NCBI GenBank assembly: GCA_031292255.1 | Contig: JARLHN010000007.1 | Span: 37,510-101,509 of the forward strand | Length of the DNA stretch: 64,000 bases | Origin: Oryzomonas sp. | Lineage (GTDB): Bacteria; Desulfobacterota; Desulfuromonadia; Geobacterales; Pseudopelobacteraceae | Direction of reading: 5' to 3' | In this document: piece by piece, positions 10,783-14,682 of the stretch | Numbering within the stretch: position 1 is the stretch's first letter | Layout: every line of letters starts with the position of its first letter | Made by a program: the position numbers and the translations under genes | The notes under the pieces: model-generated | Seen by the model: the letters and a program-made list of their open reading frames with translations, nothing else | What the model was told of the DNA's origin: nothing | Database searches by the model: none

Positions 10783-12258
<1,476 letters not shown>

Positions 12259-12425
12259 GGTTTTGCTCCGAAAAGGATTCAAGGTGATTGAAAAAGCTAG
12301 CACAGCCATTGGGGAGAGTCAAGTTCAGCGGGATTGCCCGCCGCCAGGTTGGATTTTTTTAAACTCTTCCCATCATTGGCATTCATTGCTATAGTGATTC
12401 AAATCTCAACACAGAGGGCCCGGAA

Positions 12426-13370: not shown

Positions 13371-13402
13371 CGTATCGTTCTGCCTGGATTATAAATTTAA
13401 CA

Positions 13403-13431
13403 TTGACAACTCCGTTATGGTTGTGATTTAG
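13403..13431 (+). promoter_or_regulatory. Candidate promoter for the DAHP synthase leader
   Basis: TTGACA at 13403-13408, 17-base spacer, ATTTAG at 13426 (or GATTTA at 13425, preceded by TG as in an extended -10). Transcription would begin near 13437-13439, next to the leader-peptide ATG, so the leader could be translated from a leaderless mRNA; no Shine-Dalgarno lies before that ATG. Confidence 0.5.
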
Positions 13432-13438
13432 TACCCAC

Positions 13439-13525
13439 ATGAATTCGAATCGTTTCTTTAACGCCTTTTACTTTTTCTTTTGGTACGGCTTTTATTTCAG
13501 GCCGTCTGCCCAGGCAAAGGTGTAA
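13439..13525 (+). CDS. Aromatic-rich leader peptide of DAHP synthase
   Basis: A 28-residue ORF with 12 aromatic residues: eight Phe, three Tyr, one Trp. The core, residues 10-20, reads [11 protein letters not shown]. This codon run is what a Phe/Tyr attenuation leader needs. It starts right after the candidate promoter, ends 31 bases before a hairpin with a T-run, and lies ahead of the DAHP synthase gene. No Shine-Dalgarno is visible. Stalling at Phe or Tyr codons would cover ACGGC (13485-13489) and change folding downstream. Function is inferred from composition and position. Confidence 0.8.
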
Positions 13526-13589
13526 GCGCGAGGAAGCGAACCAACTACACACCACAAGCCGGGTGGACAGACAGTCCCCCGGCTTTTTT
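13485..13589 (+). promoter_or_regulatory. Transcription attenuator: terminator and competing antiterminator
   Basis: Segment 1 ACGGC (13485-13489) pairs with segment 2 GCCGT (13501-13505). Segment 2 with its continuation, GTCTGCCCAGGC (13504-13515), can instead pair with segment 3, GCCGGG...CAGAC (13558-13572), with two bulges. Segment 3 starts the terminator: AAGCCGGG (13556-13563) with CCCGGCTT (13578-13585) and six T's. A ribosome stalled on the aromatic codons would free segment 2 and prevent termination; free translation would allow termination. Confidence 0.72.
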
Positions 13590-13662
13590 ATTCACCGCAA
13601 CAGATGCGGACAGGGCCGGGGGGAAACCTTCGGCCCTTTTGCTTGTGGGAAAGGAACGGGAG

Positions 13663-14682
13663 ATGATCATCGTAATGAAAGCGGGCGCGGTAAAGAAGGA
13701 CAAGGACGAGGTGTTGAAGCGCATCAAGGAACTGGGCTACAAGCCGCATGTGATTCACGGCTCGACCAGGGATGTTATCGGTGCGGTGGGGGACGAACGG
13801 GGCAAGGCGGTGTTGCAAACCCTTGAGTCATTGCACGGCGTTGAAAACGTGGTGCCTATCCTGCAACCGTACAAGCTGGCCTCCAAGGAGGTCAAGAAGG
13901 AGGCGAGCATCGTGCGGATCAGCGATGATGTGGAGATCGGTGGGGAACGGATAATCATGATGGCCGGCCCCTGTTCCGTTGAAAACGAACGGCAGATCAT
14001 CGAATCGGCCGAGGCGGTGAAGAAGGCGGGAGCCCACATCCTGCGGGGTGGCGCCTTCAAGCCGCGTACGTCGCCTTATTCGTTCCAGGGGTTGGAGGAG
14101 GAGGGGCTCAAGCTGCTGGCAAAGGCCCGCGATCTTACCGGATTGCCGGTGGTGACCGAGGTGATCAATCCCGAAACCGCCGAGTTGGTGGCAGAATACT
14201 CCGACATCCTCCAGATCGGCGCCCGCAATTCCCAGAACTTCGCCCTCCTGAAAAAGGTCGGCCAGATCGGCAAACCGGTTTTGCTGAAACGAGGCATGTC
14301 CATGACGATCCAGGAATTTCTCATGAGCGCCGAGTACATCATGAGCGAGGGAAACCAGTCGGTAATCCTTTGCGAGCGCGGCATCCGCACCTTCGAGACC
14401 GCCACCCGCAATACCCTTGATCTTTCGGCCGTGCCGGTGCTCAAGGAAAAGACGCATCTGCCGGTGATAGTCGATCCCTCCCACGGCACCGGCAATCATC
14501 ACTACGTCGCCCCCATGTGCTACGCCGCCGTGGCGGCCGGAGCCGACGGCCTGATCGTGGAGGTCCACCCCGACCCGGAACGTGCTTCCAGTGACGGCCC
14601 GCAATCGTTGAAACCGGCCAAATTCCAGGCGATGATGGACAAGTTGCGCCGCTTCGCCGAAGCGGTGGACAGGACGCTGTAA
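13663..14682 (+). CDS. aroF: 3-deoxy-7-phosphoheptulonate synthase (DAHP synthase, type I-beta)
   Basis: 339 residues. It condenses phosphoenolpyruvate and erythrose 4-phosphate, the entry to aromatic amino acid synthesis. The start at 13663 has GGGAG upstream and gives [17 protein letters not shown], the ferredoxin-like regulatory domain (residues 1-70) typical of this subclass. Active-site motifs are [32 protein letters not shown] and DPSHGTGNH. The frame is open further upstream through the attenuator, which is not coding. Expression is probably controlled by the leader peptide at 13439 and, at protein level, by the regulatory domain. Confidence 0.95.

Follow-up and report, generated by a model that had tools for sequence, protein, structure and literature searches.

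A putative ribosome-mediated attenuator with an aromatic-rich leader peptide ahead of a DAHP synthase gene in Oryzomonas and its relatives

The window analyzed here, a 64-kb stretch (64,000 nucleotides) of an Oryzomonas genome, contains a short open reading frame crowded with aromatic codons, followed by a terminator and the gene for a 3-deoxy-7-phosphoheptulonate (DAHP) synthase. The elements of this locus are as follows.

13403..13408, + strand: -35 element TTGACA of the leader promoter, a perfect -35
13426..13431, + strand: approximate -10 region (ATTTAG/TTTAGT), a weak match 17-18 nt 3' of the -35 element, placed by spacing
ATG 13439 to TAA 13525, + strand: leader peptide ORF of 28 codons, with 12 of 28 residues aromatic; probably leaderless
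13485..13489, + strand: region 1, ACGGC, in the Y-G codons; pairs with GCCGT at 13501-13505
13501..13511, + strand: region 2, GCCGTCTGCCC; its GCCGT pairs with region 1, and its GTCTGCCC (13504-13511) pairs with region 3
13561..13568, + strand: region 3, GGGTGGAC; antiterminator partner of region 2, also in the 5' arm of the terminator
13556..13589, + strand: intrinsic terminator (regions 3:4), stem AAGCCGGG.GGAC / GTCCCCCGGCTT, then TTTTTT
13612..13637, + strand: second hairpin ahead of aroF, with a 5' arm (GCCGGGGG) complementary to the 3' arm of the terminator, CCCCCGGC
13663..14682, + strand: aroF/aroG-like DAHP synthase of 339 aa (NCBIfam), the putative controlled gene

An earlier note on this DNA had described an aromatic ORF of 28 codons between TTGACA and a terminator with six T's, ahead of the DAHP synthase gene, and all of this is found at the coordinates above: the leader ATG at 13439 sits 36 bases 3' of the start of TTGACA, and the terminator (13556-13589) is made of the stem AAGCCGGG..CCCGGCTT at 13556-13585 and a T-run at 13584-13589. 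We take the DAHP synthase to be of the class named type I-beta. It scores 523.9 bits against NF006421 (cut-off 335) and 408 bits against TIGR01361 (cut-off 267.75) in NCBIfam, and the nearest DAHP synthase among the matches listed, that of Oryzomonas japonica, is 92% identical. In a census of the small ORFs of the 64 kb (15-60 codons, both strands, one per stop codon), the leader ORF, with 10 of them, is the only one of 917 to have at least 7 F/Y/W per 11 residues. No aromatic leader was found at the second DAHP synthase gene of the genome (L002, G000:C14:186764-187753, 56% identical), at a third, weaker DAHP synthase match (L003), or at trpE (window 10783-12309, minus strand). The folding energy of the leader RNA is -55.5 kcal/mol; 200 dinucleotide shuffles give -37.2 +/- 3.6 kcal/mol (z -5.1, below all 200). 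From the window alone, the minimum-energy fold is a larger hairpin, between the aromatic-codon stretch and purine-rich RNA 3' of region 2. The consensus scan of the window overlooked the main terminator and reported the hairpin at 13612-13637; its count of 1 is no higher than shuffles allow (mean 0.7).

The leader is widely conserved. DAHP synthase loci were collected by protein similarity, the best 80 of 567 being kept. An aromatic-dense ORF lies within 450 bases upstream in every one of the 42 closest (L004-L045), with the core F-x-F-W-(Y/F)-G-F-Y-F in most of them. Thirty-six of these 42 are labelled Geobacteraceae or other Desulfuromonadales, 4 are labelled only Proteobacteria/Deltaproteobacteria, and 2 are metagenome-assembled genomes labelled Thermodesulfovibrionales and Nitrospiraceae. 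The leader also occurs at L046, L067, L075 and six Rokubacteria loci (L057, L059, L061, L062, L068 and L073), and at least 6 aromatics per 10 residues were found at 51 of the 80 loci; the other 29, from Nitrospinota, Bacteroidota, Ignavibacteria, Acidobacteria, two more Rokubacteria and others, fall below this density. A covariance model built from 39 leaders (R1) has a match in 221 of the 244 class genomes (176 of the 187 most complete) and none in the remaining 23; across the phylum it matches 83 of 297 genomes at E <=0.01, with 95 matches. In the genome studied here it finds the leader at E 8e-30 and nothing else below E 0.29. The second and third matches (E 0.29 and 0.42) were judged to be chance.

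Comparison of these leaders also bears on the RNA pairings. In 39 sequences aligned with plain MAFFT, GUCUGCCC (13504-13511) and GGGUGGAC (13561-13568) are paired in 94.6% of 312 cells, compared with 34-52% when the partner is slid by 1-3 columns. Double changes occur in 9 cells and at 3 of the 8 pairs, and none of 500 shuffles reached the observed pairing together with the observed double changes; further pair types are no more numerous than in shuffles, 398 of 500 reaching the same number. The antiterminator GUCUGCCC/GGGYRGAC thus covaries among relatives. Pairing of GTCTGCCC had been claimed with a CAGAC region further on; the conserved partner is instead GGGTGGAC at 13561-13568, as the figures of 94.6% and 34-52% indicate. 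The helix ACGGC/GCCGU, proposed before as one of three alternatives, can form and is conserved, with 91.8% of 195 cells paired in the 39 sequences, double changes at 3 of 5 pairs, and 9-67% pairing when slid. RNAalifold recovers this helix and the antiterminator unprompted, both in one structure, and the two share two bases only; the helix of regions 1 and 2 would therefore be a weak competitor of the antiterminator. An automatic 8-mer search for region 2 chose other pairings at some loci (e.g., L016, L026 and L027) and was excluded from the counts.

The terminator behaves differently on the alignment: 66.5% of it is paired, versus 64.3% when slid by +1. This weak covariation probably comes from misalignment, and we therefore base the support for the terminator on the stems of individual loci. 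At 33 of 45 loci there are at least 5 unbroken outer pairs beside a GGG/CCC core; the stem is interrupted beside the core at 8 (L015, L016, L027, L029, L030, L032, L033 and L035) and its lower part is absent at 4 (L017, L022, L026 and L028). The outer pairs vary among G-C, A-U and C-G across loci. Three Geomonas loci (L017, L022 and L028) and L026 retain the leader, have lost the lower stem and carry a changed region 2 (GTCGCCCC; at L026, CTCCCCGG). The second hairpin near aroF is seen again in other loci of Geobacterales, where its T-run is mostly poor.

A structured 5' region ending in a terminator is also what one would see if the RNA were a riboswitch or a T-box style leader and the ORF incidental. 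The whole window gave no match to a leader family of Rfam 15 at the curated score, no T-box, and no other Rfam family at its gathering score; a permissive search (E <=10) of 13380-13670 returned seven matches, all to unrelated families far below threshold. Since the ORF, its aromatic codons and its start spacing are conserved, we give this explanation almost no weight.

The last codons of the leader are where the coding sequence and the RNA meet. We scanned them in 96 leaders with the strict motif GTC[TC][GA]CC, which is present in 79 and absent in 17. The word stands in frame 2 in 41 leaders (mostly P-S-A, also K-S-A and R-S-A), in frame 0 in 30 (V-C-P, V-Y-P, V-R-P) and in frame 1 in 8 (G-L-P, R-L-P). 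A 7-nt partner, G-U allowed, follows within 100 nt past the stop codon in 72 of the 79, the rule giving none in 7, and variant words mostly have a matched partner: GTCTACC/GGTAGAC, GTCCACC/GGTGGAC, GTCCGCC/GGCGGAC. Outside the 96, another 12 leaders, several of them near-duplicates, include 9 with the word (8 of these with the partner) and 3 without it, and 34 of 36 extra loci of the class (L087-L093, L116-L144) have it in frame 2. Loci found by R1 are biased towards the word, and those found by similarity form an unbiased subset; in the nine similarity-found loci outside Desulfuromonadales (L046, L057, L059, L061, L062, L067, L068, L073 and L075) the word is present in 9 of 9, in frame 0 unlike Geobacter, and the partner in 7 of 9. 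Because the word occurs in all three frames of the last codons, it appears to be kept as RNA and not as peptide. The word and its frames together point to selection on the RNA there and on the aromatic codons just 5' of it.

These data also weigh on the idea that the ORF is a small protein gene whose aromatic-rich product is itself functional, for example in the membrane, with an ordinary terminator behind it. The peptide core is indeed well conserved in Geobacterales, and leader peptides acting in trans are known, as with peTrpL (described in the available part of PMC7298713). However, the last codons keep the RNA word and not the residues (PSA, VCP and GLP in the three frames), Phe and Tyr interchange at the same codon (e.g., 10-12 and 28-30 nt before region 2), and a DAHP or ADH synthase gene comes next in 53 of the 64 phylum matches examined. 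We consider a functional small protein very improbable.

How the leader is started was studied in 34 Geobacter-type leaders, namely that of the window and 33 of the 42 closest (L004-L035 and L038), grouped by eye. In all 34, TTGAC[A/T] starts 35-38 nt 5' of the leader ATG, a spacing that would place a normal start point at, or a few bases from, the ATG. The best Shine-Dalgarno-like match 5' of the leader ATG has 6 nt in 2 of the 34 and 0-4 nt in the others, compared with 4-7 nt at the aroF ATG of the same loci. Among the 36 extra class loci, some from the same organisms, 34 have the spacing of 35-38 nt, one is cut off, and at L093 the spacing holds for another ATG of that frame, located 9 nt upstream. 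TTGAC is found 39-43 nt 5' of the ATG at the six Rokubacteria loci, one of them having a second possible ATG at 28. The TTGAC-ATG arrangement is missing in the other nine of the 42 (L036, L037 and L039-L045). Eight of these nine were inspected (L036, L037 and L040-L045). Seven (L036, L037, L040, L041, L042, L044 and L045) have a Shine-Dalgarno-like run of 4-6 nt ahead of the ATG, as does L046; the run at L043 is only 3 nt. Among the 42 loci it looks as if two ways of starting replace each other.

On these grounds the leader is likely to be translated leaderless, and the suggestion of a leaderless leader made from the window gains from the TTGAC-ATG spacing in 34 of 34 and from the 32 of 34 leaders that have no convincing Shine-Dalgarno match. 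The attenuator could be real and its leader nevertheless initiated from a conventional 5' untranslated region. Such an arrangement would fit the consensus scan of the window, which gave no full sigma-70 promoter and no good -10 element, as well as the 4-6 nt runs in the Desulfuromonas- and Pelobacter-type relatives and L046. We regard it as unlikely for the Geobacter-type leaders in view of their constant TTGAC-ATG spacing, which is kept in the further class loci too (at L093 from the upstream ATG), and of the scarcity of Shine-Dalgarno matches relative to the aroF starts. Our search found no published transcript-start data for the gene of the leader. If borne out, the leaderless start would be a case in which initiation free of a Shine-Dalgarno site sets a transcription decision.

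Based on these findings, we propose a mechanism for the control of aroF. RNA polymerase would start at the leader ATG or a few bases from it, and a ribosome would translate the leader without a Shine-Dalgarno site. When charged tRNA-Phe, tRNA-Tyr or, in the Geobacter-type group, tRNA-Trp is scarce, we infer that the ribosome would stall in the F-F-F-W-Y-G-F codons 5' of region 2. The stall would leave GUCUGCCC free, and it would pair with GGGUGGAC once this has been transcribed; the terminator would thereby be blocked and aroF transcribed. When charged tRNAs are plentiful, the ribosome would reach the stop codon, 12-19 nt past region 2, and cover region 2; GGGUGGAC would then enter the terminator, and transcription would end before aroF. 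In fold calculations, an RNA that ends at region 3 and has region 2 free takes the antiterminator as its best fold (-25.2 kcal/mol), and the terminator alone forms when region 2 is hidden under the footprint of a ribosome on the stop codon. Once the whole region of the window has been made, the terminator is favoured over the antiterminator at equilibrium, so the switch must be kinetic; the modelled choice between exposed and hidden folds matches the kinetic logic of known ribosome-mediated attenuators. With the ORF, the terminator, the covarying antiterminator and the leader in relatives in its favour, the attenuation reading of the earlier note is supported at the level of sequence, by comparative evidence of unusual clarity, and we put the probability that this DAHP synthase gene is under the control of a ribosome-mediated transcription attenuator at about 0.93.

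The amino acids that such a switch would sense can be approached through codon distances, which were taken in 35 of 39 Geobacter-type leaders (L017, L022, L026 and L028 were dropped, the motif being missing). The codon 22-24 nt 5' of region 2 is Trp in 32 of 35 and Phe in 3, and the codon 25-27 nt 5' of it is aromatic in 33. A ribosome stalled at codons 22-27 nt before region 2 would leave region 2 free, and we infer that Phe, Tyr and Trp could each act as a trigger in this group. The Phe and Tyr codons emphasized before are conserved, but Trp is as conserved as they are, and the label of a Phe/Tyr leader may therefore be too narrow.

The leader is found ahead of other genes as well. For 64 phylum matches out of the 95, namely the top 63 by score plus a weaker one, we compared the downstream gene by tblastn with ten reference proteins from the loci. 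ADH synthase is an alternative, unrelated enzyme for the first step of aromatic synthesis. First-step enzymes, which follow 53 of the 64 matches, comprise 44 DAHP synthases (36 type I-beta, 5 divergent and 3 type I-alpha) and 9 ADH synthases. The rest are 4 phenylacetate-CoA ligases, 4 binding proteins of branched-chain-type ABC transporters, and one each of a shikimate kinase (L158), an aminotransferase (L155) and a TPR protein (L156). The last three, the LivJ-like binding proteins and the type I-alpha DAHP synthases were named by reading the sequence and not by a family search. One of each of three other kinds was checked against NCBIfam: the ADH synthase passes the cut-offs, ligase L099 falls just under (641.9 vs 646.3), and divergent DAHP synthase L094 is under its cut-off (254.4 vs 335). 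The leaders of ADH synthase genes are L102/L148, L105/L149, L111, L153, L159, L167, L175, L176 and L183; at L148, the operon reads on after the ADH synthase with dehydroquinate synthase II, chorismate mutase/prephenate dehydratase, shikimate dehydrogenase and EPSP synthase.

Phe-rich leaders (e.g., MDNRFFRFRFFGFFGGFFFRKSAHGRGR) stand before phenylacetate-CoA ligase genes at L099, L113, L114 and L162. In the L145 operon, a ligase gene has behind it apparent ABC transporter genes of the branched-chain type and another ligase-like gene; from this content, the operon may serve aromatic amino acid supply. Tyr-rich leaders ending in YYGYLRRSA precede LivJ-like binding protein genes at L103/L150, L151 and L184, and a Phe-rich leader lies ahead of another such gene at L160. 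Possible cargoes of the transporters behind these leaders are aromatic amino acids or aryl precursors. When a ligase or transporter gene of unknown substrate has a leader rich in Phe or Tyr ahead of it, the leader would predict what the operon supplies.

In the enteric his operon, the attenuator is a chain of alternative hairpins with histidine codons. At the Rokubacteria loci (L057, L059, L061, L062, L068 and L073) the first hairpin has no T-run, and T's come after the second (weakly so at L057). The first hairpin's 3' arm is complementary to the second's 5' arm, and we liken these two-hairpin members to that chain; the arrangement hints at a possible his-like relay. If the RNA stops short of the last arm, L062 and L068 form the antiterminator together with a hairpin of arms 4 and 5. 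In folds of the full RNA, all six have the final terminator hairpin and five (all except L059) also the antiterminator, so that the relay is only a kinetic idea.

Putting these loci together, we tentatively suggest that one old module (aromatic codons, GUCUGCCC and its partner GGGCAGAC) could have spread through the phylum and into Rokubacteria. It would stand before whichever enzyme opens aromatic synthesis, be it one of several kinds of DAHP synthase or ADH synthase, and before phenylacetate-CoA ligase and ABC transporter genes. In Geobacterales it would sense the three aromatic amino acids together and be leaderless, and in Rokubacteria a second hairpin would pass the decision on to a downstream terminator. 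If this were true, leaders before uncharacterised ligases and transporters would reveal operons that feed aromatic amino acid supply.

Several known systems invite comparison. The enteric pheL-pheA and pheST attenuators have a Phe-rich leader ORF and a choice between antiterminator and terminator, and their leaders depend on a Shine-Dalgarno site. Both, named in the part of PMC11802643 available, differ from the present case in genes, host group and sequence, and the Geobacter leader has no Rfam match. In Sinorhizobium meliloti, a leaderless leader peptide is described whose RNA begins with the AUG or has no ribosome binding site (PMC7298713, in part), with other amino acids and other genes. 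A 2013 survey, confined to the four attenuator motifs that Rfam then contained and without coverage of delta-proteobacteria, suggested a possible origin of such attenuators in gamma-proteobacteria, followed by very few transfers (PMC3766115); a Geobacter-type leader family would widen this picture of their origin.

For Geobacter and for the phylum, our search found no published description of such a leader apart from a Desulfovibrio entry; subscription literature lay mostly outside the search, and absence from it is not proof. The main text of a 2004 regulatory reconstruction (PMC545781) mentions no leader peptide, aroF, DAHP, tryptophan or aromatic amino acid, a term search of PMC2965389 gave no description of the Geobacter leader, and there is none in the accessible parts of PMC3766115 and PMC5343134. 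The Desulfovibrio vulgaris entry is a predicted attenuator before aroA'-aroB'-aroQ-pheA-aroF-tyrA-trp (Merino list, Table 7, PMC1173090). It resembles the ADH synthase operons with aromatic leaders (L148, L149); as far as the excerpt of PMC1173090 goes, it is a predicted structure with no leader peptide mentioned, and Table 7 has no Geobacter attenuator.

The closest parallel in kind comes from Corynebacterium glutamicum, for which the available excerpts of PMC11802643 and PMC4046766 describe an attenuator with an aroR leader peptide (Phe-Tyr-Phe) at aroF, whose transcription rises on Phe limitation and not with Tyr availability, according to a review. The earlier note knew of no such leader described for DAHP synthase in this bacterial group, and our search found none for Geobacter, but the kind is known from Corynebacterium. 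As with aroR, an aromatic leader peptide lies ahead of a DAHP synthase gene; C. glutamicum is an actinobacterium with a Phe-Tyr-Phe run. The Geobacter leader differs from it in its 12 aromatic residues, its conserved Trp and the GUCUGCCC word. What is new relative to the Corynebacterium case is that the leader is conserved throughout a class and turns up again ahead of other first-step enzymes, an aryl-CoA ligase and transporter genes; this adds, for metal-reducing bacteria and their relatives, a putative RNA switch of aromatic amino acid synthesis that extends across the class.
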